Below are positions 2,958 to 23,462 of a stretch of DNA of 24,451 bases, piece by piece. Numbering within the stretch: the first letter of the stretch is position 1; each line of letters begins with the position of its first letter. The notes below the pieces were generated by a model. It did not search any database and was not told where the DNA came from. It saw nothing but the letters and a program-made list of their open reading frames with translations. The DNA is from a virus, in IMG/VR virus record IMGVR_UViG_3300023083_000102, positions 1-24,451 of that record; one strand, given 5' to 3'. Made by a program: the position numbers and the translations under genes.

Positions 2958-3389
2958 TTAGAAACTCCTTAGTTTTGCTGATACGTACACATCGGCAGTT
3001 AAAGCGGCTTTATTTCTAACATAAATAGAGATACCGGGCTCCAGGGTGATTACACGGTTACCTGCGAGATCCAGATCAAACAGTATAGGAGAGAGACCAG
3101 CCAGTGATGCCAATGCAGTTGTGCCATTATTGCCCGAGTTGGCCGGGACTGCGATTTGTACACGGTTAAAATAATCGGTAGTGTTTGAGCCTGTTGCGCA
3201 AATAATAATATCAAAGTTACGTGCAGTTGTTTCCAGGCTTCTGAAAAGAACATCTAACACAATACTTGAATTGGTTGCGCCGGTAACAATTAGCATATCG
3301 CTATTAATGGGAAGCCCCGATGCCAGTTTTACTGCAGGATAAGTGCCGGTTAGCGTAGCAAAGGACGTTGTGTTTGAGCTGCTGTTCAT
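2958..3389 (-). CDS. small virion or fibre-associated protein, unknown
   Basis: 143 residues, rich in Thr, Ser, Ala and Asn, with alternating hydrophobic positions (for example NRVITLEPGISIYVRNKAAL), as in small beta-sandwich fibre or decoration proteins. No family recognised. Its ATG overlaps the stop of the collagen-like gene by four bases (ATGA) and its stop is one base from the next ATG, so it is locked between two fibre-type genes and is probably made with them. It could be a fibre tip, a trimerisation partner or a head fibre base. Not an enzyme by any visible motif. Confidence 0.55.
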   Translation of the reverse strand: MNSSSNTTSFATLTGTYPAVKLASGLPINSDMLIVTGATNSSIVLDVLFRSLETTARNFDIIICATGSNTTDYFNRVQIAVPANSGNNGTTALASLAGLSPILFDLDLAGNRVITLEPGISIYVRNKAALTADVYVSAKLRSF

Positions 3390-4375
3390 AATATAGATTG
3401 ATAAAAGTTATAAGAAAAGTTACCGGCTGATACAGCCGGGTTTATCCATTGCGTATCGTAATTTGTTGGGGAGGTTTTTACCAGCATTTGCCCTGTTGCC
3501 CCGCCTGTGGGTACCCCTTGTCCGGGAGAGCCTTGTGGCCCTGTGGCTCCGGTTGTGCCCTGGGTACCAGAAGCTCCGGTATTTCCGGTAGGCCCGATAG
3601 GGCCTTGCTCGCCTGTTGGCCCTTGTGTCCCTGCAACTCCAGTAGCCCCTGCTGGCCCTTGTGGTCCTGCTATACCTTGCGGCCCTTGCGCGCCGTCGGC
3701 ACCTGCCGACCCTGTGGGGCCGGTTGCGCCTTGTGCGCCGTCAGGGCCTACTATCGATATTCCTGCTCCCCAAACGCCGGCGGTTTTTGGGCCGAAAAGC
3801 CTGAGCGTATTGGTATTGATGTAAAAGTCGCCATTGTTGCCGTCGGTGGTGTTGGATGGGTTTGTTACGCCGCTTAAAATTGTTTTGCCGTTTAAGCCTA
3901 CCGGGCCAATATTTCCTTTTTCGCCCCTTGGCCCTTGCGGGCCGGTTTGCATGGAGAATGCCTGATTCCAATTTCCTGTAATCTTTTGGTAAAAGATCCC
4001 CGTTAGCGTATCAATATAGCTATCAGCATTTTTACCTGTGGCTGTACCGGGCAGGCCGGCTCCGTAGAGTAAAGTTCCGTCGGCAGCGTTGGTTTCGGGT
4101 AGTGTGTAAACAATGGCCCAGGTGCCGGTAAGTTTCTGTGCAAATTGGCCGGTTGTGGTTTTAACAAATACATCGCCATTTTTACCCGCTGTGTTTTGAG
4201 GCATCTGCGTTCCAAAGGTTAGAGATGCGCCGGCTGTGAGGTTTGCGTTAAGGTAATCTAAAAGCTGACTAACAGAGAACTGATAATCAATGCCATTATT
4301 TACCAGCAGTGATACATCGGCAGCGCTGAGGCCTGGCGCTATGGGGAGTTCGGTTATTTTTTTGTCTGTTGCCAT
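3386..4375 (-). CDS. collagen-like tail fibre protein
   Basis: 329 residues. The N-terminus (KKITELPIAPGL) is of a type common in phage fibre and virion-attachment proteins. Three copies of a unit of the form G-(K/N)-N-(G/A)-D-x-(F/Y)-x-x-x-(T/N)-T-G-x-(F/Y)-x-x-K-x-(T/A)-G-x-W occur at about 62-90, 113-140 and 178-204, probably small beta domains. Gly-X-Y collagen repeats run at about 145-162 and 210-288, rich in GPQG, GATG and GPTG triplets, and would form a trimeric rod. The C-terminal LVKTSPTNYDTQW motif is frequent at fibre ends. The ATG overlaps the stop of the connector gene by one base (TAATG). The GC-rich repeat tract creates long Pro- and Ala-rich open frames on the other strand that are not genes. 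Confidence 0.8.
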   Translation of the reverse strand: MATDKKITELPIAPGLSAADVSLLVNNGIDYQFSVSQLLDYLNANLTAGASLTFGTQMPQNTAGKNGDVFVKTTTGQFAQKLTGTWAIVYTLPETNAADGTLLYGAGLPGTATGKNADSYIDTLTGIFYQKITGNWNQAFSMQTGPQGPRGEKGNIGPVGLNGKTILSGVTNPSNTTDGNNGDFYINTNTLRLFGPKTAGVWGAGISIVGPDGAQGATGPTGSAGADGAQGPQGIAGPQGPAGATGVAGTQGPTGEQGPIGPTGNTGASGTQGTTGATGPQGSPGQGVPTGGATGQMLVKTSPTNYDTQWINPAVSAGNFSYNFYQSIL

Positions 4376-7311: not shown

Positions 7312-7361
7312 GGAGTTGATTGATTATGTTAGATGGGTTGAATTAATAAATTGGTATCAAG

Positions 7362-7433
7362 TAGTTAGTATCAAGTATCAAGATCTGATCGGGTGACAAA
7401 AGGGGAATTGGTCTTGCTACTTGATACTAACTA
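7362..7433. repeat. perfect 16-bp inverted repeat between capsid and tube-like genes
   Basis: TAGTTAGTATCAAGTA at 7362-7377 and its exact reverse complement at 7418-7433, with a 40-base loop. Part of the unit repeats directly (GTATCAAG, TATCAAGTAG, GTATCAAGAT). It lies just downstream of the capsid stop (7445), so it could form the 3' hairpin of the capsid message or attenuate reading into the next gene. It has no U-tract typical of an intrinsic terminator. Confidence 0.75.
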
Positions 7434-7444
7434 TTTGCTACTGT

Positions 7445-8653
7445 TTATGCGCTTAAATAGAAAAGCTCGTTAGCGAATTTGAAGTTTACGGCGGCTTTCA
7501 TGCGGGCCTTCATGCGTACCACGTTATCGTTGGTATAAGGCTTCATGTAAACGGTTGAGAGTTCTGATGCATCGCCTAAAAGATCTACACCAAGAAACAG
7601 GTTAGATGACCTTGCACCCAGGATAGTGTTTGCCTGCCAGTGGTTCATTAACTGCAGCGGTACACCCAGGTAATCCATTTTCTTAGGATCGGTAAAGGCA
7701 TTCAGAACGTTTACCGCTTTATCTGCCTGTGCCTGTGCGTAAGCATAACCTACATGAAGAGGGATCTGTAAGTTGAAATCTTCCTGACTGCGATCGGCAG
7801 GATCCAATTGTGCGTAGATGCCGGTTAACACGCTTAATACGTTGCTTGCGTTAATGTAGCTTACGGTTGCAGCTGTTGAGGTACCGCCGAAGGTAGCTGG
7901 TTTGCGGGTGTTCACTTCGTTGTAGTTGCGCACCAGCTTAAAGGTAGTAGCGCTAAGCACCTGTATAAAGTACGATTGCCCCTGCACATCTATGCCGCCG
8001 CTGCTGTTGGTGGTATCTTTACTGGCACCGGTTACAGCGGTAATGGTAACTACGTCGCCATCTTTCAGCGTTGCTGTATCAGATACCGTAACTACGCCTA
8101 AAGCGCTGATGGCTGTTGCCGCCATTGAAGTTGCCGGTTTGCCTAAACCTACTTTGTAAACGCCGTTTGCTGCTGCAATAGTTGGCAATAAGCCGGTGAA
8201 CGGTGCGGTAAAGGCGGCTTCTTTTGTGGCACCTTTACCCAGCCAGTACAAACGCTCGTTGGCAATTTGTATTTTGGTGAGATAGCGTTGTACCATAAAA
8301 TCGCTCAGGTCTACCATGCCTTCGTAATCCTGGAAAGCTCCGGGTTTAAGCTGCTGGGTTTCCCATGATTGCACCAGTTTATCCCATTGTTCCTGTTTCA
8401 TAAATTCGTACACTACGGGGTCCAGGTAGCTTTCGTGCTGGGCGGTGGTAGTGCCCTGGTCGGTAAACATGCCGCTTGGGTCCTGCAATACCACATCATC
8501 ATCTACATCGAGGATGATCTTGCGCGATTTTACGTCGTTAATAACGGTTAGCAACCCGCGTTTTACGGAGTCGGCCTCCAGGAGCGTGCTTGCCATAAAT
8601 CCAGCCAGCGCTTCGCCGGCATAGGTGTTGTTGGTAAATGTAAATTGAGCCAT
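7445..8653 (-). CDS. major capsid protein (HK97-fold type) with inserted beta domain
   Basis: 402 residues. The N-terminal part (NTYAGEALAGFMASTLL, then VKRGLLTVINDVKSRKIIL) and the C-terminal part (IPLHVGYAYAQAQADK, VPLQLMNHWQANTILGARSSNLFLG, MKAAVNFKFANELFYL) have the look of Bacteroidota phage major capsid proteins, the C-terminal segment being the axial-domain strands. It directly follows the protease/scaffold gene, which is the normal place. Residues about 180-268 interrupt the core with a Thr/Ser-rich beta segment (LKDGDVVTITAVTGA, then SYFIQVLSATTFKLV) resembling small beta domains that phages insert into capsid or tube proteins. The ATG at 8653 is followed by MAQFTFTNN. No self-cleavage site is obvious. 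Confidence 0.75.
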   Translation of the reverse strand: MAQFTFTNNTYAGEALAGFMASTLLEADSVKRGLLTVINDVKSRKIILDVDDDVVLQDPSGMFTDQGTTTAQHESYLDPVVYEFMKQEQWDKLVQSWETQQLKPGAFQDYEGMVDLSDFMVQRYLTKIQIANERLYWLGKGATKEAAFTAPFTGLLPTIAAANGVYKVGLGKPATSMAATAISALGVVTVSDTATLKDGDVVTITAVTGASKDTTNSSGGIDVQGQSYFIQVLSATTFKLVRNYNEVNTRKPATFGGTSTAATVSYINASNVLSVLTGIYAQLDPADRSQEDFNLQIPLHVGYAYAQAQADKAVNVLNAFTDPKKMDYLGVPLQLMNHWQANTILGARSSNLFLGVDLLGDASELSTVYMKPYTNDNVVRMKARMKAAVNFKFANELFYLSA

Positions 8654-8663
8654 TCTTTATTTT

Positions 8664-8768
8664 GCCCCCCAGCCCCCTAAAGGGGGAGCTTTTTGATTAG
8701 TTAGGTTATATATAGGGATGTTGTATGATAAGGGTTAGGCAGATATTTCAATTTCCCTTCGGGAGATT
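8664..8768. repeat. paired GC-rich repeat (REPIN-like) no. 3
   Basis: A strong palindrome, AGCCCCCTAAAGGGGGAGCT, at 8671-8690, preceded by GCCCCCC. A degenerate arm in the opposite orientation (TTTCCCTTCGGGAG) at about 8752-8765 reaches the stop of the protease gene. Together they fill most of the protease-capsid gap. The strong hairpin sits about 20 bases upstream of the capsid start on the minus strand and might affect processing or stability of the capsid message. Confidence 0.55.
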
Positions 8769-9357
8769 ATCGGGCCACAGCTTTTTTTACCGCGTTTTGG
8801 GCCAGCGGGCTTTGCGGTGCAAAGAAGGGTTGAGTTTCGGTTTTTGCTTTGCTGCTGCGTTTAGATCCTTCGGGTGTGAAGTCGCTTTTTATCTCGTTCT
8901 TAACTTCCTCGCGTGTTTTTTTGAGGCGATTGTTAGCGTCTTCCAGTGCGGCTTTGGCTTCGTTTAGCAACGCGTTTTGTGCATGCAGGCGCGCTTTTAC
9001 TTCCAGTAAACGATTTTGTACATCTGCAGGTCTCTTTGGCGATTTAAATTTGCCGGCAATAACGCTTTCGTCGTCTTCATCTGTGACTTCATCCGCGTCG
9101 ATGGAAGACACCTTTTGCACTTTACCGTCTTTAATGGCTAATTGTTGCCCTTCGGATGTGGTGTAACTGTCGGTAATGGCTGGCATGCTTAAGTCTTCAT
9201 CCTGGTAAACGTCGCAGCCTTCGCTTAACTCGCCGGTGTGGTGCAGGGCCCCTTTGTCGGTAATGGTTTGTTTGTTCACCACTTTTTTAAAGAAGTTCAT
9301 GATCTTGTCTAAAACCGAGGTGGTCCGTTCAATCAGTTCTCTGTTGTCTGTGTTCAT
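8767..9357 (-). CDS. possible nested scaffold protein (in-frame internal start)
   Basis: The in-frame ATG at 9357 is codon 200 of the protease gene and begins MNTDNRELIERTT, exactly where the protease domain has ended. It is preceded by an A-rich stretch (CAACAAAACAAAT on the coding strand), the kind of leader that often stands in for a Shine-Dalgarno site in Bacteroidota. The product would be 196 residues: coiled coil, acidic, basic C-terminus (NAVKKAVAR). The arrangement parallels lambda C/Nu3, where a scaffold is made from the 3' part of the protease gene. Inferred from position only; no separate product is proven. Confidence 0.3.
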   Translation of the reverse strand: MNTDNRELIERTTSVLDKIMNFFKKVVNKQTITDKGALHHTGELSEGCDVYQDEDLSMPAITDSYTTSEGQQLAIKDGKVQKVSSIDADEVTDEDDESVIAGKFKSPKRPADVQNRLLEVKARLHAQNALLNEAKAALEDANNRLKKTREEVKNEIKSDFTPEGSKRSSKAKTETQPFFAPQSPLAQNAVKKAVAR

Positions 9358-9954
9358 ATTTGTTTTGTTGTTTAAGATTTTGTTGATGCAGCGCTGGTAA
9401 ACCGCAGGTGCTGTTTCGGTATATTTTTTTATGAGGGCGCTGTTGACGATGGTATCGGTATAATCCTCAATTGCGTCTATAAAACCAAGGTTGAGGGCCT
9501 GGTCGGCAGTCATCCAGGTGACGGAGTTGATCAAACTATTAACGGTAACCCCGTCTAACCCGGATTTATCTATGTAGATCTGCGCCAGGCGCGATTGTAC
9601 TACGTTCAACATCTGCACATCTTTTAAAAGCTCATCGGCATTGCCGCCGCTGCCAACCATTGGTTTGTGAATCATCAGCAGGGCGTATTTACTCATCACT
9701 ATTTTGTCGCCCGCCATGGCTACTACCGATGCAGCCGACGCGGCCAGCGCATCTATATAAGTGGTTATGTTGCCGGGGTACTTCTTCAGCAGATCGTATA
9801 TGGCAATGGCATCAAACGCGCTGCCGCCAACCGAACTGATATGTACCTCAACATCTGCGCCGGCCGCTGCATCTAATTGTGATTTAATGTAAGTGGACGA
9901 CAGGCTCCCGGAGCCTATGCAATCCGTTTCGGTATCGTATAGGTATAATTTCAT
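8767..9954 (-). CDS. ClpP-type prohead protease fused to scaffold-like domain
   Basis: 395 residues. Residues 1-165 form a ClpP-fold serine protease: EVHISSVGGSAFDAIAIYDLL, the nucleophile region ALAASAASVVAMAG (Ser73), ALLMIHKP (His96), then TWMTADQALNLGFIDAI. The residue that should align with ClpP Asp171, just before TW, appears to be Val145, so the acidic member of the triad may be missing or supplied by another residue. Residues 200-395 are hydrophilic, with acidic stretches and a coiled coil (LLEVKARLHAQNALLNEAKAAL), as in scaffolding or delta domains removed during capsid maturation. Directly upstream of the capsid gene. Met200 could start a separate scaffold product. Protease family call firm, triad detail from eye alignment only. 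Confidence 0.85.
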   Translation of the reverse strand: MKLYLYDTETDCIGSGSLSSTYIKSQLDAAAGADVEVHISSVGGSAFDAIAIYDLLKKYPGNITTYIDALAASAASVVAMAGDKIVMSKYALLMIHKPMVGSGGNADELLKDVQMLNVVQSRLAQIYIDKSGLDGVTVNSLINSVTWMTADQALNLGFIDAIEDYTDTIVNSALIKKYTETAPAVYQRCINKILNNKTNMNTDNRELIERTTSVLDKIMNFFKKVVNKQTITDKGALHHTGELSEGCDVYQDEDLSMPAITDSYTTSEGQQLAIKDGKVQKVSSIDADEVTDEDDESVIAGKFKSPKRPADVQNRLLEVKARLHAQNALLNEAKAALEDANNRLKKTREEVKNEIKSDFTPEGSKRSSKAKTETQPFFAPQSPLAQNAVKKAVAR

Positions 9955-10102
9955 TGTGAGTTGATAATGGTGTATTGTGAGCGGGTTTTTAGCCCTGGAT
10001 ATATATCCTATTAGTGCAAAACTTAACTTATGACAGGTGCACGTTTAGTTGACCGGAGGATCTTTTCAATCTAATAATCATTAAATCGTGATTGTGTTTT
10101 GA

Positions 10103-10116
10103 ATGCCGTTTGGCAT
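10103..10116. promoter_or_regulatory. palindrome ATGCC-N4-GGCAT
   Basis: ATGCCGTTTGGCAT. The same site with a single difference (ATGCCATTTGGCAT) is at 13294-13307 before the tape measure gene. Two copies upstream of two late genes suggest a protein-binding site. Confidence 0.45.
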
Positions 10117-10151
10117 AATTCAAAGGTCGTGATAATTCTTTTTTGTGTTGG

Positions 10152-10167
10152 TGACAGTAGCTTGTCA
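10152..10167. promoter_or_regulatory. operator-like site TGACA-N6-TGTCA, copy 1
   Basis: TGACAGTAGCTTGTCA within a longer match to copy 2 at 10290-10305; the shared consensus is TGGTGACAGYRGYTTGTCAG. Half-sites are five bases on each side of a six-base spacer, as for a dimeric regulator. Confidence 0.45.
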
Positions 10168-10289
10168 GTAATATGAAATTATCTTTGAACTTTGATTTCT
10201 AGGATTTGCCGGTAGACTTGATAGTTGCGAATAACTTAATTATAGCGATCGAACTATACAAATATCGGGGTTATTATGCTGGCTGATGG

Positions 10290-10305
10290 TGACAGCGGTT
10301 TGTCA
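10290..10305. promoter_or_regulatory. operator-like site TGACA-N6-TGTCA, copy 2
   Basis: TGACAGCGGTTTGTCA, 138 bases from copy 1 in the same orientation, with matching flanking bases (TGG before, GT after). Confidence 0.45.
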
Positions 10306-10328
10306 GTTGGGGTTTTTTTGTCTGAACT

Positions 10329-10396
10329 CGAATTTAAAGAATTTTTGGAATGAGCAGAATTAGTATTCTCATTATTATGTATAATTCTTTAATTCG
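10329..10396. terminator. imperfect hairpin after the small HTH-like gene
   Basis: CGAATTTAAAGAATT at 10329-10343 pairs with AATTCTTTAATTCG at 10383-10396 except for one bulged base, and a smaller hairpin (AGAAT-TAGT-ATTCT) lies in the loop. It lies 30 bases past the stop of the 77-residue gene on the minus strand. It could end that transcript, but it is AT-rich and has no clean T-tract, so it may instead be part of the regulatory segment. Confidence 0.3.
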
Positions 10397-10425
10397 AATA
10401 ATTAAGGTTCAGGTTTTCGCACTCG

Positions 10426-10659
10426 TTAAATTTCCGAGAAACAATTAAGTGCGCGCCAGATGGTGCGCTCGTCTTTACCGAATTTTACTTCGGCTTCCAG
10501 CACTGCCTGGTTTTTGGTGAGCTGGCGCATTTGCATCTGGGCGGTTACCCATAGATAGATCTCGCGGTAAGTAAATACTTTGGTAGTGATAAAACCGGCC
10601 TTATACATGGCCGTAAATACGCCGTCATTAAACAGCGTGTTGGCAAGTTGAATATTCAT
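10426..10659 (-). CDS. small hypothetical protein, helix-turn-helix-like
   Basis: 77 residues and highly helical. The C-terminal half, LTKNQAVLEAEVKFGKDERTIWRALNCF, has the spacing of a helix-turn-helix: a helix with Ala/Glu, a Gly turn, then a recognition-like helix ending in WRALN. The N-terminal half (FNDGVFTAMYKAGFITTKVFTYREIYLWV) looks like packed helices. It lies after the tape measure gene and before the 470-bp regulatory segment with paired operator-like sites, so a late regulator is an attractive but unproven idea; a small structural protein is the alternative. ATG at 10659; the upstream gap is a GC-rich repeat pair. Confidence 0.55.
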   Translation of the reverse strand: MNIQLANTLFNDGVFTAMYKAGFITTKVFTYREIYLWVTAQMQMRQLTKNQAVLEAEVKFGKDERTIWRALNCFSEI

Positions 10660-10671
10660 GAGCCCCTCCCG

Positions 10672-10754
10672 TCCCCTAAAAGGGGATGCTATTTGTTAGT
10701 TAATGGTTTGGTTAATTAGATATTAAATTAGTTTCCCCTTTAGGGGTAGGGGCC
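10672..10754. repeat. paired inverted GC-rich repeat (REPIN-like) no. 4
   Basis: TCCCCTAAAAGGGGA at 10672-10686 and CCCCTTTAGGGGTAGGGGCC at 10735-10754 are opposite-facing copies of the family, 48 bases apart. The spacer length equals that of pair no. 1. The right arm ends two bases before the tape measure stop codon at 10757-10759. The pair fills the whole gap between two late genes. Confidence 0.65.
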
Positions 10755-10756
10755 TA

Positions 10757-13279
10757 CTATAAATTTACCCTGTTTATTGTTTGGGCAAGTATGTTCTGTT
10801 GATTGTTTACGTCTTTAACGTCCACGTAAATAGGGGGGAAGTTGTTGATCATCTGGTAGGCCAGGGTGTTGGCCATATCCTTAATGTCGTTTACCGGTTG
10901 GTTGTAGTAGCGGTTGGCGTTACCGCCATCGGTAAATATGCCGCCTATGGCATAGCCCCTGCTGGTGTTGGGTACCGAGAAATCCCGGCCGCCGTGGGCA
11001 ACGTTTATGGCACTTACCAGGTTGCGCGCCCATGGGTTGCGCATAGCCTCAGATACTACTACGGCTTCGCCGCTGCGCAGATAAGCGTTGGTGTTATCGG
11101 TACGGCTGTAGCCGGGCAGTACAGCACCCTTACCATCGGATAGATACTGCCCACCGGAAGCAAAACCGGGTTTTTGTTTAATAATTGTAGCGATAGACGA
11201 AGCCCCCTGCGCGGCCATAAAGGCTGCCTGTGCTATACCTAATGCCTGGCCAATAAAAGGAATACCCGAATATGCTTTTAAGGATTCCAGCACAGCTTGT
11301 TTGGTGCTGATTATTGTATCAGCAATTGAAGTTGCCTTTTTTGCAAGGAAAGCTGCTTTGTATATAGCCGAATCTTTTTTGCTATTGGCTAATACTGCGT
11401 TTATATATTTATCGCCGGCATGTATTTTGGAGCTTATCAACTGCGTTTCTAAATCAAGCTTCTGCTTATCGTACTTCCTTTTTATCCCGGTTGTGTCTTT
11501 GTGTTGTTTTTCCGCCGCTGTAATTGCAGTTTGATACTCCGTGTTTAAAGTTGTGATTTGCTGCTGAAGAGATGGGTTTACGTTTGTTTCGTCTGTTTTA
11601 CTGTTATTGAATGTCGCGTTATTTACTTCGCCGCCTTCCTTTACGTTTGTTTCGGTAACAGAAGGGCCATTCTTTATCTCAGTGATTTTTTTATTTAACT
11701 GTGTTTCGTAACTTATACGCACATCGCCCGCTTTTTTGTAAACTTCGTTTTGTTTATCAATAGATTCTTGCAGCGCTTGTATTTGTTCTGTCGTAGCTTT
11801 TCCCTGAAGATCCGCTAACTGTTTTTGTTCTTCTATAATACGCTGTTGTAATTCCTCCTGTTCTTTGTCAAAATCTTCCAGCTTTTGTTTTTTGTTTTCT
11901 TCTGCCTGCAAAAGTTCTTTTTGCTTTGCATCTTCTGTGCTATCAATTACAATTTGCGCGAGTTTGTGCTGAAACTGGTCAAGTTTATCCAGATCATCTT
12001 TCCGAAAAGTATCTACAATCTTTTTTAATGCCTCCTGGTGGTCTTTTTCTATTTCTTCACGTTGTTTGGATGATAATTTTTTTCCGGACTTTAATCTCTC
12101 ATCATAGTAATCATTGATACTTTTAACCTGGTTGTTGTATTCGTTAAAGATAACTACCGACTCGTGGGCTATCTGTGTCACCTCATCATTTTTAGAACCT
12201 TTTTTGTTTTTATTATTGTTTTGAGATTCATCAGGAATGATTTGTTTGCCCCCGGTTAGCGTTGAAACACCATTGCCAGGTTTTTCTGTTAATTTACTTA
12301 TTTCATCGGCAAATTTATTGTTCTGTTTATTTAGGATGTCTTTATCGGTATTATAATTATATATTATTTTGTCACTTGCAGCGCGAAGTTTTTTTTGTAT
12401 ATCTATATTATCCTGGAGTTGCATAACCATTCTGTCGTTGGGTAAAGGCTTATACCAACCTTCTTGATTAAGATACCCACTTTTTACCTCCTCGGCCTTT
12501 TTCTCTGATGCGATTATCTGCAAGTTCTTTTTTCTTTCTTCGGCAATTTTTAAATCGTTTTCAATATTTCGGCTTGCGTTGGCTGTGATCTTATTTTTGT
12601 AAGCTTCTGCATAGGCTGCATCTAATATCTGGGTTTTAAGGTTTTTATAGGCATCGGCGGCTTTGCCTGTTTTAAACGCTTCATCATCTAAATTCTTAAA
12701 GGTGGCAGGCCATTGCTCACGAAGTAGAACCATAGCTTTTCTTCGTTCTTCGAGAGAAAGATTTTGATTTTGTGATGCCCGAAAGAGCATGTTTAAAGCA
12801 GTAATTTCGCCTTGGGCAGATTGTGCTCCCCTTATCCTTGCTTCTGTAACGGAACCTGCAATTATTGCCTGTTCTTTCATGGCCTTGCCAAATGCAGTTA
12901 ACCTTGTTTCACCTTTAAAGAGATCGCTCACCCAATCTATAATTGCTTCCCCATAAGTAGCCAGCAAAGTTACACCTATAGAAATAACAGTGTTCCAAGA
13001 TAGCATGGATGAGGCCAGTTGTTTAAAAATATTTACTGGTTTGCCACCAGTTGCAGCCAGTTCTTTATTTTGTTTATTAAGCTCGGCCATTGCTTGCACT
13101 ACTTCCGGAAGTTTTTCACCAATGCCCTGTAACCCGGCTTTTATGCCATCTGCAAAAGATGGCAGTTTTCCATTTAACCCGTTTATTGATTTTTGAAGTT
13201 CATTTAATGCCTCTGTGTATTTTTTCGCTTTTTCAATATCATCTGTGTTGATAGGAGCGTTGTTTGTTAGATTACTCAT
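10757..13279 (-). CDS. tail tape measure protein
   Basis: 840 residues, the largest protein here. It has an N-terminal helical part, a hydrophobic stretch at about 85-115 (LSWNTVISIGVTLLATYGEAIIDWV), long Lys/Glu/Gln-rich coiled coils through about 350-590, and a second Ala-rich hydrophobic zone at about 655-710 (IPFIGQALGIAQAAFMAAQGASS). It ends in a Gly-rich domain (FASGGQYLSDGKGAVLPGYS, LRSGEAVVVSEAM, YAIGGIFTDGG) typical of Bacteroidota tape measure proteins. Such proteins fill the tail lumen, set tail length and help DNA entry; by the usual 0.15 nm per residue, 840 residues would mean a tail of about 120 nm at most. The length and coiled coils point to a siphovirus. The start at 13279 follows a palindrome by 14 bases. 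Confidence 0.85.
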   Translation of the reverse strand: MSNLTNNAPINTDDIEKAKKYTEALNELQKSINGLNGKLPSFADGIKAGLQGIGEKLPEVVQAMAELNKQNKELAATGGKPVNIFKQLASSMLSWNTVISIGVTLLATYGEAIIDWVSDLFKGETRLTAFGKAMKEQAIIAGSVTEARIRGAQSAQGEITALNMLFRASQNQNLSLEERRKAMVLLREQWPATFKNLDDEAFKTGKAADAYKNLKTQILDAAYAEAYKNKITANASRNIENDLKIAEERKKNLQIIASEKKAEEVKSGYLNQEGWYKPLPNDRMVMQLQDNIDIQKKLRAASDKIIYNYNTDKDILNKQNNKFADEISKLTEKPGNGVSTLTGGKQIIPDESQNNNKNKKGSKNDEVTQIAHESVVIFNEYNNQVKSINDYYDERLKSGKKLSSKQREEIEKDHQEALKKIVDTFRKDDLDKLDQFQHKLAQIVIDSTEDAKQKELLQAEENKKQKLEDFDKEQEELQQRIIEEQKQLADLQGKATTEQIQALQESIDKQNEVYKKAGDVRISYETQLNKKITEIKNGPSVTETNVKEGGEVNNATFNNSKTDETNVNPSLQQQITTLNTEYQTAITAAEKQHKDTTGIKRKYDKQKLDLETQLISSKIHAGDKYINAVLANSKKDSAIYKAAFLAKKATSIADTIISTKQAVLESLKAYSGIPFIGQALGIAQAAFMAAQGASSIATIIKQKPGFASGGQYLSDGKGAVLPGYSRTDNTNAYLRSGEAVVVSEAMRNPWARNLVSAINVAHGGRDFSVPNTSRGYAIGGIFTDGGNANRYYNQPVNDIKDMANTLAYQMINNFPPIYVDVKDVNNQQNILAQTINRVNL

Positions 13280-13343: not shown

Positions 13344-13859
13344 TTAATATTTATTAAATTGATTTTCAGTAAAGGTTAGAATAGCTAAAACGTAGTATTT
13401 ATCGTCAATGTATTCAAATCCGGCTGGGAGTTTTGGCTTAGGGAGGTGCGTAACCAAGGTCTTATCAGGCTCTACAGCATACAGCTTTATTATTACATTT
13501 GATATTTTACCATTCTCAGTCGTTGTATCAGCAAAAAACTTACGTTCTATAAAATGGCCAAAATATGTTGATTTTTTACTTCTGTAAGTGCTTGTTTTCA
13601 TGCCCATGTCTGATGCCAGAGATCCTATTTCTGAGGTAGTTTTGGATTTGATTATCCTATAGAATGGACGGATTGCGGTATCGGGAGAGTATTGGGTATA
13701 GTTATCGGCATAAACTTTATCGCCGCTACTGAACGGTTTTGCTTTCATGTCGGCATAATAAGCTTCTATGTAGGATTGGTTATAAAAAAATACAACCATT
13801 GCAATTAAAACGAGGGATCCCAGGATGTTGAATATGATTTTTTTCTTAGATAGTACCAT
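13344..13859 (-). CDS. single-span membrane protein, unknown (accessory island)
   Basis: 171 residues: a short basic N-terminus (MVLSKKKIIF), one hydrophobic span at about 8-26 (NILGSLVLIAMVVFFY), then about 145 residues probably outside the cytoplasmic membrane. It resembles the 207-residue protein at 14503-15126. Both have a Tyr-rich segment just after the span, a central STY/STF segment, and a C-terminal motif of the form P-x-L-P-x-G-(F/Y)-x-Y-x-D (KLPAGFEYIDD here, NLPVGYVYADS there). Family unknown. Placed between virion genes and AT-rich, it is more likely cargo than a structural part; superinfection exclusion or immunity would fit a small membrane-anchored protein but is only a guess. 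Confidence 0.6.
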   Translation of the reverse strand: MVLSKKKIIFNILGSLVLIAMVVFFYNQSYIEAYYADMKAKPFSSGDKVYADNYTQYSPDTAIRPFYRIIKSKTTSEIGSLASDMGMKTSTYRSKKSTYFGHFIERKFFADTTTENGKISNVIIKLYAVEPDKTLVTHLPKPKLPAGFEYIDDKYYVLAILTFTENQFNKY

Positions 13860-13966
13860 ATGTTTTATAAAATTATTGTGTAAGCAGATTGTTATTCAAA
13901 GTAAAAAAGAATTTGTAAATATTTATCTTAACACGTGCTAAAGCGCGCATTTTTGTAGATAGAGAT

Positions 13967-14065
13967 TTAAAGATAAAAGCTTTGCGAAAAAGCATTATGT
14001 AAAACAGAACATGTAAAATAATAATTCATTTGGATTGGGTTTTGCTAAAATTATTGGTAAATATA
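13967..14065 (-). pseudogene. remnant of a leader plus gene start
   Basis: The repeated leader (14041-14065) is followed, 21 bases past its 11-base core (TTATTGGTAAA on the plus strand), by an ATG at 14029. The start codon has the same spacing and similar first codons as the gene at 16356 (ATGAA, then TTATTTTAC). The frame stops after 20 codons at 13967. This looks like a third copy of the exported-protein gene that has decayed, leaving its promoter region. Confidence 0.4.
14041..14065 (-). promoter_or_regulatory. repeated leader, copy A (orphan)
   Basis: TTTGCTAAAATTATTGG and the following TAAATATA on the plus strand match copies B (15136-15160) and C (16369-16392). On the minus strand this gives TATATTTACCAATAA, whose TATATTTA is close to the Bacteroidota -7 element (TAnnTTTG). 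Similarity to copy B continues for about 50 bases upstream (TTTTTTGATAA, ATTTGCTTATC). Confidence 0.5.
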
Positions 14066-14166
14066 TATTTTTTTTGATAAATAAAGGGACTTATTTTATA
14101 ATTTGCTTATCGTTATACATGTGCAATTGGTAGTACTTGTAAATAATTCTGTAGATAGAGGACGAA

Positions 14167-14313
14167 ATGCTTATTATACAACTTAAAACTTTTAAAGAAA
14201 AATTCTTTGACATCGGTCTTGGTATCACATCGAAAGACCCAGGGCATTTTATTTTTTATTATGGAGAACCCGATGAAGAAAAAAAGTGGAAATTGGTTTT
14301 CAGGATTCAATGA
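14167..14313 (+). CDS. short plus-strand reading frame, unknown
   Basis: 48 residues starting MLIIQLKTFKEKFF and ending KKWKLVFRIQ, with AGAGGACGAA just before the ATG, which resembles a ribosome-binding site. The composition is protein-like (mixed charge, aromatic residues), and it lies on the opposite strand to the virion genes in a 640-base gap. It may be a small gene or the 3' end of a longer one whose 5' part is lost; the frame is closed by a TAG twelve bases before the ATG. No family known. Confidence 0.3.
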   Translation: MLIIQLKTFKEKFFDIGLGITSKDPGHFIFYYGEPDEEKKWKLVFRIQ

Positions 14314-14380
14314 TTAGTATAATAAAGCCTCACAAGAAACTCCTGAAACCAAGAATACTTTGTAAACTTCTATCTGTAGA

Positions 14381-14401
14381 CAAATAATTTTAAATTATTT
14401 G
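14381..14401. terminator. perfect AT palindrome
   Basis: CAAATAATTT-T-AAATTATTTG, ten complementary bases on each side of one central base, about 100 bases past the stop of the 207-residue gene on the minus strand. The GC content is very low, so a terminator role is uncertain. The rest of 14314-14502 shows nothing convincing except a 25-codon frame near 14470. Confidence 0.3.
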
Positions 14402-14502
14402 TGTGAATAAGAATATTGTTTGGTAATTGAAGTAGATACTGTTTTATAGATTTCGCGAAAGAAATTATACATATAAACTTTAACCTCGGTAAATGGATGT
14501 GA

Positions 14503-15126
14503 CTATTTATGTATTACCGGAGAGTTTGGGCTTGCAAAAAACGGATCTATATACACTAAACTATCTGCATAAACATAGCCAACAGGTAAGTTGGGCATAA
14601 CATCATATTTGAGATATTTATTATCTGGTTTTGTAACATAATAGGTAGCCATATGTGTTTCAGAACTACTATAGTTTACAGGTAGTATCTTGGTATCCAG
14701 GTATCTTCCGAGGGTGAAATGTTTATTTGTTTCCATATCCTTTATATTATAAAAAGTACTTGTGTTTTTTAAATATGGCTTAAATGAGTTGTCTTCAGCA
14801 ATTCTTAAAGCAGTTATTTTATCCTCTTCAGTATAAAGCAATTTATTTTCAATTTCGTTTTCCCTAATAGGCCTTATCAAACGCATTACTAATATACCAT
14901 CACCAGTGCCTTTATTAACAATAGCATCAGAAAGATAAACAACAGAATAAGGCGCAAAACGATCAGTTTTAAAAACATAGATGTAAGCGGCATAAAAACC
15001 CAATATATTAAAATAATAAAAGAAACCAACTGTAACTGCAACAGCGGCGGTTCCTAAAAATAGTATAATTTTTCTTTTTCTCGTGTTACTTACTTTTGGT
15101 TTGTTAAGTGATTGTTCTGGGTGCAT
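14503..15126 (-). CDS. single-span membrane protein, unknown (accessory island)
   Basis: 207 residues: an N-terminal basic region (NTRKRKIIL), one hydrophobic span at about 20-42 (FLGTAAVAVTVGFFYYF), and an exported domain with YSVVYLSDAIVNKG, STFYNIKDMETNKHF and NLPVGYVYADSLVYIDP. It seems a distant paralog of the protein at 13344-13859. The ATG at 15126 lies 19 bases after the core of a promoter-like leader almost identical to that of the gene at 16356, so it is probably transcribed on its own as well as from the late message. Function unknown. AT-rich compared with the neighbouring virion genes, consistent with acquired cargo. Confidence 0.6.
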   Translation of the reverse strand: MHPEQSLNKPKVSNTRKRKIILFLGTAAVAVTVGFFYYFNILGFYAAYIYVFKTDRFAPYSVVYLSDAIVNKGTGDGILVMRLIRPIRENEIENKLLYTEEDKITALRIAEDNSFKPYLKNTSTFYNIKDMETNKHFTLGRYLDTKILPVNYSSSETHMATYYVTKPDNKYLKYDVMPNLPVGYVYADSLVYIDPFFASPNSPVIHK

Positions 15127-15135
15127 GGCTTTAGG

Positions 15136-15160
15136 TTTGCTAATTTTATTGGTAAATATA
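15136..15160 (-). promoter_or_regulatory. repeated leader, copy B, before the 207-residue gene
   Basis: 24 bases identical to copy C (15137-15160 against 16369-16392). On the minus strand it reads TATATTTACCAATAAAATTA. The core is 19 bases from the ATG at 15126. Likely promoter region of that gene. Confidence 0.55.
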
Positions 15161-15217
15161 ATTGTATTTTTTGATAATAAAAGAACTTGTTCTATTATTT
15201 GCTTATCAGTAATAGAA

Positions 15218-15245
15218 ATGTTAAGTAAAATATATTACTTAACAT
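15218..15245. repeat. perfect 11-bp hairpin in divergent region
   Basis: ATGTTAAGTAA at 15218-15228 and TTACTTAACAT at 15235-15245, six-base loop. It lies between the leader of the minus-strand gene at 15126 and a plus-strand gene remnant, so it could be an operator shared by both or a hairpin. No further copy noticed. Confidence 0.5.
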
Positions 15246-15301
15246 AGTTTTATCTGTAGTTATGAGCCATCTTACCAGTTTATGTTTACTATGTTATTTG
15301 G

Positions 15302-15776
15302 AATATTATTATTTATAAAAGAGATGCTCATCTGGAAGCTTTTACTAAATATGCATATAATAGTTTAAAAACGTACAGGATTGGGAATTTCAGGTTGACG
15401 AAATTAACGATAACAGTTACTATGCTACTTCTATTGCCCAACCATTTTTTGATTTAGATATCCCGGTATATAATTTGCTCCTTGTAGCCACAATTACAAT
15501 AGTGTGGATTCAATTGCTATTACTAACCGCGTCGACTTTGGTTACACAACACCTAAAAAAACCTAAGAATGCTGAGATAATAAAGCAAATTGGTATAATG
15601 AAAGGCCTCCAAAAAGGAGATGTTGTATTAGTATCAGGAGCGTTACTCTATGTTAATAACAAAGGGAAGTTGATTTTTCTTCTTTTTATCAGGACTCTCA
15701 GCCGTGGAATTTTGATTTATTAATATCTGAAATCAAAGGAAACACAAGTAGATTTATATTAAGTGTTTTTTTATAA
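15302..15776 (+). pseudogene. decayed plus-strand gene, unknown
   Basis: Protein-like segments follow each other on the plus strand in changing frames without an intact start: YKRDAHLEAFTKYAYNSLK (from about 15314), VQDWEFQVDEINDNSYYATS and PFFDLDIPVYN (from 15373), GLQKGDVVLVSGALLYVNN (about 15604-15660), then FYQDSQPWNFDLLISEIKGN to a stop at 15774-15776. At least two frame changes are needed, so this is best read as a broken gene rather than the 82-codon open frame inside it. LQKGDVVLVSG resembles LQKGDEVFVTG in the convergent gene at 15779-16356, hinting at an OB-like fold in both. It ends two bases from that gene's stop. Confidence 0.45.
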
Positions 15777-15778
15777 AC

Positions 15779-16356
15779 TCACTGTATTAGCAATTTTTTG
15801 ATAGCTGATATCTTCAAATCAAATTTTAAATTATCAAAGGGGGTAACTGACGATAATTCACTACCATAAGGTTCGATATTTATACCACCAGAAAGGTTTT
15901 TCTCTATTTCACCGGTTACAAAAACTTCATCTCCTTTTTGCAGAACTTTTAGTGCATCCTTAATTTTGTTTGGCTTAACATCAATAAGGGATACCAGTAT
16001 CGGAAAGGCATATTCCGGATATTTTTCTTCCTTCCAGTTACTGCCGGGTATTATTAGGTCTACCTTTATATAATCGGTTGGGTAAGAGTTAACCTCAATG
16101 TTGTGTACTATTGCTACCCAACCGTCTATCTTACGGTTGTTTAATACAAATTTGGCAACTTCCTTTTGTTCTTTTTCTAAAAATTCAGTTTTTGTTATTT
16201 CATTCAGTTGCGTAGCGTATACAGAATCTGCCTGGTTTAATCTCTTAATAAATTCTACCTCGCTCTTTGGCATTTTTTTAACAGTGTACCTGATGTCGTT
16301 TGGCTGGTTGCAGCTAATAAAACTATAACTGGAATAAGGTAAAATAATTTTTTCAT
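15779..16356 (-). CDS. exported protein of unknown function, split by an A7 slippery run
   Basis: The main frame (16273-15779, 164 residues from MPKSEVEFIKRL) lacks a signal. Just upstream, in the other frame, the ATG at 16356 opens a typical signal peptide, MKKLFYLIPVIVLLAATSQ, which runs to TLLKK and stops at 16255. The two frames meet at A_AAA_AAA (16279-16273), a canonical -1 slippery heptamer; a one-base slip there joins them into about 192 residues. Either programmed slippage, homopolymer phase variation or a recent frameshift explains this. The mature part has alternating strands and LQKGDEVFVTGEI, OB-like. It is preceded by leader copy C with a 21-base spacing to the ATG, which supports 16356 as the real start. 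Function unknown. Confidence 0.55.
16273..16279 (-). other. A_AAA_AAA slippery heptamer
   Basis: Seven A on the coding strand, in phase for -1 slippage from the signal-peptide frame into the frame of the mature protein. Confidence 0.5.
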
Positions 16357-20868: not shown

Positions 20869-21309
20869 TTACAGTATCTCACTATACATACTATTTAGCG
20901 TAATGGTTAAACCTACACCGGTGGTGTTTACATCAAACTTGTTATAAACGGGCTGACATTTGGCTTTTTCGCCCGCTTTAATGCGGAAGTAACGCCCTTC
21001 GCCATCACGGTATTTTGCTGCCTTTACAATAAATTCATTTGCCATGCGTAGTGCCTGTTGTACGTAGGTTTCGTTTTCGGCAGTATATTGGCCAAATTCT
21101 GTTTTGTACAAAAACTCCAGGTAGAGTGTAAATACATTATTTACCGAGCCATTAATATGTGGCGATACCACAATGGGCTGCAGGGGGTATAACATTACAC
21201 AGGGAAATTCGGCATTGTCTGCCAATGTGTTCAATTCTGTTTCGGTGCCATATAAAAATGCAGGCGCCGCGCTAAGCGTTTGTGCTATCGCTTCAATTTC
21301 ATTTCTCAT
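20869..21309 (-). CDS. small tail or head completion-like protein
   Basis: 146 residues starting MRNEIEAIAQTL, with TETELNTLADNAEFPCVMLYPLQP, VFTLYLEFLYKTEF, ALRMANEFIVKAAKY and a C-terminal TGVGLTITLNS strand. Alternating strands around two helices, and the FPCVMLYP segment, match small Bacteroidota phage proteins that I think act as tail terminators or neck components. It sits between the chaperone-like gene and the two large virion genes. Function inferred from size, pattern and place only. The 70-base gap upstream contains CCTGATG/CATCAGG half-repeats without a clear role. Confidence 0.4.
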   Translation of the reverse strand: MRNEIEAIAQTLSAAPAFLYGTETELNTLADNAEFPCVMLYPLQPIVVSPHINGSVNNVFTLYLEFLYKTEFGQYTAENETYVQQALRMANEFIVKAAKYRDGEGRYFRIKAGEKAKCQPVYNKFDVNTTGVGLTITLNSMYSEIL

Positions 21310-21379: not shown

Positions 21380-21649
21380 TCAGGAGGCCGAGGGGCTTAT
21401 TATTTCACTGTACCTTTTTTGATATTCTGCTTCGGTTTTATTTAGCAGCAGTTTGGTAAGAATGCGTTCGTATGGCATTGCCAGTATAGCATTCCATTTG
21501 GTGATATCCCCGCCGGCGAGCGAGTTTACGGTATTAATATATTTAAACTTTTCAAAAGCTTGTATACCGGCCCGTTTTTCCAAAGCTGTAGCAACCGATG
21601 CCAAAAGCCTGTTTTCGGTTTCGATAAGTTTGGATAGTTCATAAAAAAA
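21380..21649 (-). CDS. -1 frame extension of the tail chaperone gene
   Basis: After slippage at TTTTTTT the -1 frame reads YELSKLIETENRLLASVATA and continues to AEYQKRYSEIISPSAS, 87 residues, giving a fusion of about 282 residues. The segment GGDITKWNAILAMPYERILT has the pattern of the T part of such chaperones (Gly-Gly-Asp, Lys-Trp, Met-Pro-Tyr). The frame has only a TTG at 21682 as a possible independent start and no clear ribosome-binding site, so expression by frameshift is the better reading. Confidence 0.6.
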   Translation of the reverse strand, partial: FFYELSKLIETENRLLASVATALEKRAGIQAFEKFKYINTVNSLAGGDITKWNAILAMPYERILTKLLLNKTEAEYQKRYSEIISPSAS

Positions 21650-22227
21650 TGTTTGGCTATGGGCAGTGCCTCCGTTACCCAAAGTTTTTTAATGGTTTCG
21701 GCAAAGGCCGCCGCGGCATATTCATCGTAATTTAAACCAGTTGTCCGGCAGTATAAATAGTAGCCCAATACCTTGCAGCATGCGTTTAAGGATGGATTAA
21801 AATATTCTTTCCAATTCTCTTCGCCATACTTTTCTATATGTTGTGCTATCTCGTCGGCAATTACGTCACGTGCGGCCATAAATGCCCCGGCAGGTTCTAC
21901 AGAAAGGTTATGTATTACATCAACTTTAACAGGCTTGCCATCAACCGGGATGGTAATGCTTTTAGGGATCTCGTCACTATTATACAGGTATTTTATTTGA
22001 TGGGATAAGCTAAGTACCGCATCGGCAAAGGTCATAAAATCATTTGCGTTACGTACGCTTTGTAGATCTGTTGCGGCCACACCAGATAATATACTGATGG
22101 CATCCAGATCGCCCAGGTCAGGCGTATCCTGTAATTGCATCATTTGCCCGAGGGTAACTTCGCTTAATTGCGAGGGAATACTTACCCGCAAATTGCCGGT
22201 AATTGTTTTAAGTGTTCTTTCTATCAT
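21526..22227 (-). CDS. tail assembly chaperone-like protein (zero-frame product)
   Basis: 233 residues in the zero frame. The N-terminal part, VSIPSQLSEVTLGQMMQLQD, then ISILSGVAATDL, is the type of opening seen in tail chaperones of Bacteroidota phages; EKYGEENWKEYFNPSLNACCKVLGYYLY and AAFAETIKKLW follow. After codon 195 the frame continues as a basic tail of 38 residues to the stop at 21526. At codons 194-195 it contains a slippery heptamer at which a second frame takes over, as in lambda gpG/gpGT, where the short form and the frameshifted form assemble around the tape measure protein. Unusually, the tape measure gene is about 8 kb further on. Role by pattern and frameshift architecture. 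Confidence 0.55.
   Translation of the reverse strand: MIERTLKTITGNLRVSIPSQLSEVTLGQMMQLQDTPDLGDLDAISILSGVAATDLQSVRNANDFMTFADAVLSLSHQIKYLYNSDEIPKSITIPVDGKPVKVDVIHNLSVEPAGAFMAARDVIADEIAQHIEKYGEENWKEYFNPSLNACCKVLGYYLYCRTTGLNYDEYAAAAFAETIKKLWVTEALPIAKHFFMNYPNLSKPKTGFWHRLLQLWKNGPVYKLLKSLNILIP
21643..21649 (-). other. T_TTT_TTT slippery heptamer (-1 frameshift site)
   Basis: In the zero frame the codons are CAT TTT TTT ATG; the last T of CAT plus two TTT codons form X_XXY_YYZ. A -1 slip leads directly into the overlapping frame that ends at 21380. Confidence 0.6.
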
Positions 22228-22247: not shown

Positions 22248-23462
22248 TTATGCTATACCTATCAGAAAATCAAAAGTTCCTGCCTGCGACGGTGCCTGGG
22301 CAGGCAGTCTGCTTTTTAAGGTTTTAGGTTTGTTTATATTCAGTTTATTTAGCGCTACATACCGCAGCGGGTCTATCAGGTGGTTGTAAACATCAACAGG
22401 CCGATTAATGGTTTTTCCGCTGCGGTCGGTTTTCCAGCGGTACCTTTCCAGTTCTTTGCGCAGGTTTACGCTGTTGCGCGTTACGTTTATTTGGTATCGT
22501 TTTAAGATATCTATAGAGTTTACCACGCTGTCGGCACCTTTTTTAGCGCCTGAGATATACCAGCCCTGTCGCTTAAGCTCCTCAATAGATTTTGGTTCGG
22601 CGCTGTCGGCAATTATTTCGGTGGTTTTGCTTATCCCAACGCTGTTTAATTTCTTTGAAATATCGGTGTTAGTGAGCCCTGTTTCATAAATAAGCTCTTC
22701 CACCCACAGTTCGCCGTTTTGTTTGTAAACCAGCAGGCAGCCGGTTTCGTCATTCGTGAATCCAAAATCTAAACCCGCTGCCAATAGTTTTGCATCTGCA
22801 GGGATGGCATCGCATATATACCAGTTGCTAAACACCAATCCGGTTATTCTGCCGGTGAGGCCACGGGCATATACTTTCCAAAGTTCATAATCTTCGGTTT
22901 TCATTGCCTCAATTTTATTTCGCAAGCCTTCGTTTATAAAAGGATTGTGGCGGTGGTCTGATATCAATAGCTGCACATCTGGCTTTCCTATCAGTTTTTC
23001 ATGGGCCCAGAAACCACTGTTAGGATTGTAATCGATATAAATACGCTTTTTGGTACGAAGGGCTAGTTCTGTATAAACTGCCCATTCAATACCGTTGGCT
23101 TCGTTGATGAAAAGATAGTCGCGTTTCCCGGATTTTGCATCCTGGGCGTTACTATAGCTTTTAAATTCGATAATGCTACCGTTTTTAAATTCAAATATCC
23201 TATCGGTTTTATTGTAGTTTTTGATCGCTTTTTTTAACTCAGGCCAGTCGTTATAAATAGCAAGGGCATCGCGCAACGCCCCCGATTTTAGATTGGGGAT
23301 GTCCTGACCAACAACTGTAATAATCTGTTTTTCGGCTTCGCAGGCAAGGCAGAACAACACCAGTTCAATGGCAAACGTTTTGCCCGAACTGGTACCACCC
23401 TGGTTTATTACAATGTAGGCCGGGCTGTTATAATTATTATGAAAGAGGATAGAAGTATTCAT
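22248..23462 (-). CDS. terminase large subunit
   Basis: 404 residues, the usual length. The ATPase part has Walker A GGTSSGKT at 22-29, Walker B DYLFIN with Glu121 at 115-121, and YIDYNP at 142-147 as the coupling region. The nuclease part, of RNase H fold, has Asp232 in AGLDFGFT, Asp286 in IIADSAEP and Asp364 in HLIDPLRY. It is the motor that cuts and packs DNA into the prohead through the portal; it resembles the PBSX/Terminase_3 type. The ATG at 23462 follows a core TTTACCAATAA motif shared with the accessory-island leaders, 23 bases upstream, and the small subunit is separated by a cargo gene on the other strand, so the large subunit may have its own promoter. Confidence 0.93.
   Translation of the reverse strand: MNTSILFHNNYNSPAYIVINQGGTSSGKTFAIELVLFCLACEAEKQIITVVGQDIPNLKSGALRDALAIYNDWPELKKAIKNYNKTDRIFEFKNGSIIEFKSYSNAQDAKSGKRDYLFINEANGIEWAVYTELALRTKKRIYIDYNPNSGFWAHEKLIGKPDVQLLISDHRHNPFINEGLRNKIEAMKTEDYELWKVYARGLTGRITGLVFSNWYICDAIPADAKLLAAGLDFGFTNDETGCLLVYKQNGELWVEELIYETGLTNTDISKKLNSVGISKTTEIIADSAEPKSIEELKRQGWYISGAKKGADSVVNSIDILKRYQINVTRNSVNLRKELERYRWKTDRSGKTINRPVDVYNHLIDPLRYVALNKLNINKPKTLKSRLPAQAPSQAGTFDFLIGIA

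Follow-up and report, generated by a model that had tools for sequence, protein, structure and literature searches.

We infer that a gene on the minus strand of a 24,451-base IMG/VR virus record (the window, meaning this whole stretch of DNA) very probably encodes two tail chaperones of the lambda gpG/gpGT type by a ribosomal −1 shift at a T_TTT_TTT heptamer. Comparison of related sequences very strongly supports a programmed frame transition at this site, because the heptamer and its phase are conserved, the second part lacks a conserved start, the −1 frame has a coding signature and the conservation is deep. The gene appears to belong to a siphophage-like prophage of Mucilaginibacter-type soil bacteria (Bacteroidota). 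Chaperone pairs of this kind are already known (lambda gpG/gpGT; PMC5009743, PMC4493119), while the family is new and unannotated; neither the family nor its homopolymer site, dual-coded tail or gene position was found as a variant in the literature searched.

Layout of the gene and its slip site

The features of the gene are as follows.

21526–22227, minus strand: zero-frame gene, G-like product of 233 aa including a 38-aa tail (ATG at 22227, stop at 21528–21526)
21643–22227, minus strand: part common to both products, 195 aa, ending in FF
21643–21649, minus strand: slippery heptamer T_TTT_TTT, CAT TTT TTT at zero-frame codons 193–195, conserved in phase
21380–21643, minus strand: T-like domain read as an extension in the −1 frame, 87 aa and a stop (21382–21380)
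21529–21642, minus strand: zero-frame tail of 38 codons, overlapping the −1 domain in dual coding, with zero-frame purifying selection at codons 2–21
21643–21681, minus strand: codons 183–195, strongest synonymous constraint of the shared part
21669–21673, minus strand: GGAGG, SD-like candidate stimulator, 19 nt upstream of the heptamer

The heptamer region reads CAT TTT TTT ATG in the zero frame and TTT TTT TAT GAA in the −1 frame. An earlier, sequence-only reading of the window had placed two overlapping frames at T_TTT_TTT in the right phase. This was borne out, with the heptamer at 21649–21643 and the −1 frame open for 87 codons past the slip. The GGD...KW...MPY segment that it had noticed in the −1 frame was likewise recovered, within a predicted fusion of 195 + 87 = 282 aa. 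Its comparison of the architecture with lambda gpG/gpGT, with a shared part of 195 residues, is supported by the combination of a short product and a −1 fusion to a second domain.

Most ribosomes would read straight through the site to give the 233-aa short protein, composed of the G domain and the basic 38-aa tail. In a minority of expression events, reading would move into the −1 frame at T_TTT_TTT; the most likely mechanism is tandem slippage of two tRNA-Phe, in which the TTT_TTT pairing moves onto the overlapping TTT TTT. The product of the shift would be the 282-aa fusion, in which a helical T domain of about 87 aa replaces the tail. In E. coli, U_UU.Y ranks second among the classes of −1 tetramers (PMC4066793). 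Changing the T run to CACTTCTTC would be expected to abolish the −1 shift. The heptamer alone is weak evidence, since T7 runs are not rare in the window (27 found versus 31 expected in shuffles). As judged from the sequence comparisons, the feature that rises above chance is its conservation and not its presence.

Conservation and coding in both frames

Searching with the zero-frame protein identified seven relatives with 60–75% identity. The heptamer was found at the identical nucleotide of the gene, followed by a −1 frame of 86–90 codons, in all six of these that could be read; the seventh (L008, 5001–5698) has a one-base indel upstream within the shared part and an intact T7, and is either a broken copy or a sequencing error. 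Profile searches of GTDB genomes and IMG/VR yielded 80 loci, mainly Mucilaginibacter prophages and partly overlapping with the first seven. TTTTTTT was present at codons 193–195 in 79 of these 80 sequences, window included, and 78 carried both the heptamer and a full −1 frame. The two exceptions look decayed: in L016 the site and all that follows are missing, and in L037 the −1 frame is truncated. Since one earlier search pattern touched the heptamer region, the search was repeated with the −1 domain only. The heptamer in phase and an open zero frame upstream were detected in 80/80 loci; many contigs were the same as in the first sample, but their retrieval was independent of the heptamer. Alignment of related prophages, which had been proposed earlier as a check, thus found heptamer and phase kept in both samples and also in the P12024S family described below.

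Codon usage at the site was equally uniform. Codons 194–195 are TTT TTT in 63/63 nonredundant sequences, and codon 193 is CAT in 60 and TAT in three, never CAC or TAC. Elsewhere in the gene TTC accounts for 110 of 477 Phe codons, CAC for 114 of 335 His codons and TAC for 214 of 453 Tyr codons.

Conservation of the −1 domain exceeds that of the shared part, and 23 of its columns are invariant, their wobble bases being free. Protein-level conservation already includes the −1 codons that immediately follow the slip, and third positions are free further on. An AlphaFold model of this domain had a pLDDT of 53, too poor for a structure search. The second frame had been described as lacking a good start, and the relatives agree: in the window, the −1 ORF has a single start ahead of the slip, TTG 21682, which is not kept in relatives, and in most members the stretch from the last −1 stop to the slip contains no ATG, GTG or TTG. 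In L022, L025, L050, L075 and others this stop and the slip are one codon apart, which leaves no room for a start ahead of the slip.

These observations bear on two simpler origins of the overlapping frames. Homopolymers commonly suffer indels and read errors, and the two ORFs might be remnants of a single gene that a one-base indel disrupted within the T run, or the result of a homopolymer sequencing error. Nevertheless, about 100 nonredundant genomes and contigs share the T run with its phase unchanged and both frames open, and selection acts on both frames, which leaves this explanation with next to no probability; an indel or sequencing error was ruled out by the conservation. Separate translation of the second part, either as an independent gene from a start of its own or by reinitiation, is also extremely improbable. 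The TTG of the window does lie 11 codons before the junction, and gp39 of Nonlabens phage P12024S is annotated as a separate 55-aa gene, but an independent second gene was rejected because starts are missing and −1 stops lie nearby in other members, and conservation of the −1 frame sets in immediately past the slip, ahead of any downstream start that members share.

The zero frame beyond the heptamer had been read as only a short basic tail. The tail is indeed basic, with a mean net charge of +7, but "only" did not hold: the tail is conserved and, by its substitution pattern, is selected as protein, with about 20 codons being dual-coding. In 63/63 sequences it is free of stops for 20 codons or more, against 5.5 predicted by resampling synonymous codons of the −1 protein. 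In 54/63 it ends after 35 or 38 codons, the stops sitting in the wobble positions of conserved INTVN codons. At tail codons 2–21 the −1 wobble base has an entropy of 0.90 bit, versus 1.27–1.32 further on. Between nearest pairs, −1-silent changes per base were halved and zero-frame-silent changes doubled in the overlap relative to the non-overlapping part (substitution counts 166:123 versus 686:121, Fisher p about 2e-20, a nominal value as pairs share ancestry). Pairwise identity of tail residues 2–19 was 0.56 versus 0.28 under resampling. Beyond about tail codon 21 the zero frame showed no signal of protein selection, only missing stops. The dual-coded tail would make the short chaperone more than a truncated fusion, and it bears on the differences between G and GT.

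A TBLASTN search of the gene against named phages gave no match, and the diverged relatives in P12024S and in Elizabethkingia phage TCUEAP1 were reached only through structure and the −1 domain. In P12024S, the terminase is immediately followed by gp38, whose 175 aa equal the length of I6R9M9 and which carries a T9 run at its FF. A −1 frame of 81 aa opens after the slip, and gp39 is the annotated end of that frame. The two, annotated as hypothetical genes (JQ823122, 23136–23830), almost certainly form a single gene that is frameshifted at T9. Relatives of gp38 are carried by 63 viral contigs, and about 35 distinct members share the layout at T9–T10. The distinct relatives examined have T9–T10 in phase at FFYHLG, except one cut by a contig end; in four, another heptamer was listed first, and T9 was seen in the three that were re-read. 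One search pattern for these relatives included FFYH, which biases FF there but not the codon choice. Profile comparison of the window family with the P12024S family (phrog_32199) matched the G parts (92.2%, E 6e-7) and the T parts (92.0%, E 6.5e-7). The two families thus have homologous halves, the same place after the terminase and the same slip phase; they differ in that P12024S has T9 rather than T7, lacks GGAGG and is annotated as two genes. The frameshift device would seem to be old, because these diverged Bacteroidota phages have both halves joined at a T9–T10 run.

The zero-frame tail of the P12024S family is 16–84 codons long, far beyond the resampling expectation in most members. In L168 and L172–L226, viral contigs related to gp38, the tail overlaps the −1 domain by 55–84 codons, an unusually long stretch of dual coding.

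The C-terminal part of TCUEAP1 gp3 gave a profile match to the T domain (96%). The protein holds the same place after the terminase large subunit, and its T-like domain is homologous. In contrast with the window, this domain (MN732896, 2164–2706) is fused in frame to a different, shorter and unmatched N-terminal part, with no shift site. This in-frame homolog counts against the explanation by a chaperone frameshift. Searching viral contigs with gp3 gave no match.

Signals around the slip site

Many −1 sites have a downstream RNA structure. RNAalifold, whose model leaves out pseudoknots, gave no conserved structure downstream of the heptamer, and single-sequence energies were near those of shuffled sequences. 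A downstream stem-loop or pseudoknot stimulator was rejected on these results, within the reach of a program that does not model pseudoknots. A weak GGGU/GCCC hairpin is predicted upstream.

The last 13 shared codons (183–195), which carry the strongest synonymous constraint of the shared part, include GGGTAACGGAGGCRCTGCCCATAGCCAAACA before the T run. SD stimulators of frameshifting usually lie 10–14 nt from the slip site, and the GGAGG here is further away, at 19 nt. It is present in 81/82 members with T7–T8 versus 1/14 members with T9 or more. This association involves only 3–4 changes on the tree and is not significant once relatedness is counted, and the sequences are no more than suggestive that a longer T run goes with loss of GGAGG.

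A functional SD would be surprising here, and testable, because the ribosomes of Bacteroidia sequester their anti-SD (PMC9976891). The pattern of the 16S 3′ end was not found in the four genomes searched, from which the rRNA may be missing. It is conceivable, if rather unlikely, that GGAGG is a true stimulator pairing with the normally hidden anti-SD, and that the chaperone ratio depends on ribosome state, for instance on the loss of bS21. On the same proposal a longer T run would replace GGAGG in other lineages, and the zero-frame tail would be a separate functional module, the overlap encoding two selected C-termini. The element would allow an internal SD to be tested on ribosomes that sequester the anti-SD.

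Gene neighborhood and the probable chaperone role

Three neighbors of the frameshift gene are needed to place it.

22248–23462, minus strand: terminase large subunit, directly upstream (PHROG/Pfam terminase)
20869–21309, minus strand: gene directly downstream, 146 aa, position matching P12024S gp41 (138 aa), no Pfam or PHROG family match
10757–13279, minus strand: tape measure protein, 840 aa (phrog_1506, 1.6e-10)

In the order of transcription, an ORF at the place of the small terminase is followed by the large terminase, the frameshift gene, the 146-aa gene, two genes of about 680 aa, cargo-like genes, the tape measure gene and a head protease. By order and look only, the major capsid protein, tail tube and portal probably come after the protease. 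G/GT chaperone genes belong to the tail module and usually precede the tape measure gene immediately. The sequence-only reading had put the gene about 8 kb from the tape measure gene instead of next to it. The distance was confirmed (8.1 kb, with the tape measure gene downstream), but it does not amount to a displacement: the gap is about 5–10 kb in nearly all relatives where both genes were located, and in P12024S, where the tape measure gene also lies downstream, it is 6.4 kb. The two adjoin only in L075, where 34 nt separate the end of the tape measure gene from the frameshift gene downstream of it.

A role as a tail assembly chaperone pair of the lambda gpG/gpGT type is likely from architecture and context, because the short product is a G-like helical protein, the fusion adds a second domain of about 85 aa, the gene sits in a tail/terminase module and the tape measure gene adjoins it in L075. 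By analogy with lambda, many copies of the short protein would coat the tape measure protein and a few fusions would recruit the major tail protein. In the G/GT class, the two products are made in a balanced ratio and are missing from virions. A −1 shift where G meets T is a widely conserved trait of long-tailed phages (review PMC5009743). The likeness to lambda gpG/gpGT and to the equivalents in HK97 and TP901-1 lies in the short product, the −1 fusion at a slippery heptamer, the location of this heptamer at the 3′ end of the first frame and the tail region (PMC5009743; TP901-1, PMC4493119). TP901-1 uses GGGAAAG, whereas the site here is a T homopolymer. Unlike lambda, the window family has a G part of 195 aa and a selected 38-aa zero-frame tail (up to 84 aa in relatives), lies beside the terminase 5–10 kb from the tape measure gene and has no detectable sequence-family match.

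The AlphaFold model of the short protein had a mean pLDDT of 82, mostly 85–90 over residues 1–190. Pfam and PHROG searches with either part returned no family with a chaperone name, and a Foldseek search of the model against the PDB matched no solved structure. Its significant BFVD matches were uncharacterised phage proteins, including Nonlabens phage P12024S I6R9M9.

Two further readings would keep both products and change either what they do or how they arise. The programmed transition might serve another morphogenesis factor, such as a head or packaging accessory expressed beside the terminase. The gene does adjoin the terminase, and known chaperones are unmatched by sequence or solved structure. 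Against this, two products with a C-terminal −1 extension are the hallmark of G/GT, the tape measure gene adjoins in L075 and the isolated phage P12024S has the same module, so that another role is distinctly unlikely. Alternatively, RNA polymerase might add or omit U residues on the T7–T11 run, with ribosomes reading the altered mRNA unshifted to the same two products. Such transcriptional slippage would account for a site made up of T alone in all members and in the P12024S family, with no case of T_TTT_TTC or of a different type of heptamer; runs of 7–11 T occur, and the downstream stimulatory structure was not found while a weak hairpin is predicted upstream. Nevertheless, most members have only seven T, and the synonymous constraint upstream includes the SD-like GGAGG. 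Even where the run is nine long, the first T (third position of CAT/TAT) is retained, which tandem tRNA slippage requires and polymerase slippage does not. Ribosomal slippage is therefore favored by the sequences, although not decisively, and the polymerase route is considered unlikely.

The probable tail chaperone frameshift, being deeply conserved and unannotated, offers a way to find the gene in poorly annotated Bacteroidota viral contigs. Other genes of these genomes were recorded in passing. Three cargo-like ORFs (171, 207 and 164 aa) lie upstream of the tape measure gene at 13344–16273 of the window, two of them starting with membrane-segment-like sequence, and a probable tail fiber gene contains collagen-like G-X-Y repeats at 3386–4375. 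In L087, a block of glycosyltransferase-/methyltransferase-like ORFs (7327–10953) comes directly after the gene that follows the chaperone gene.
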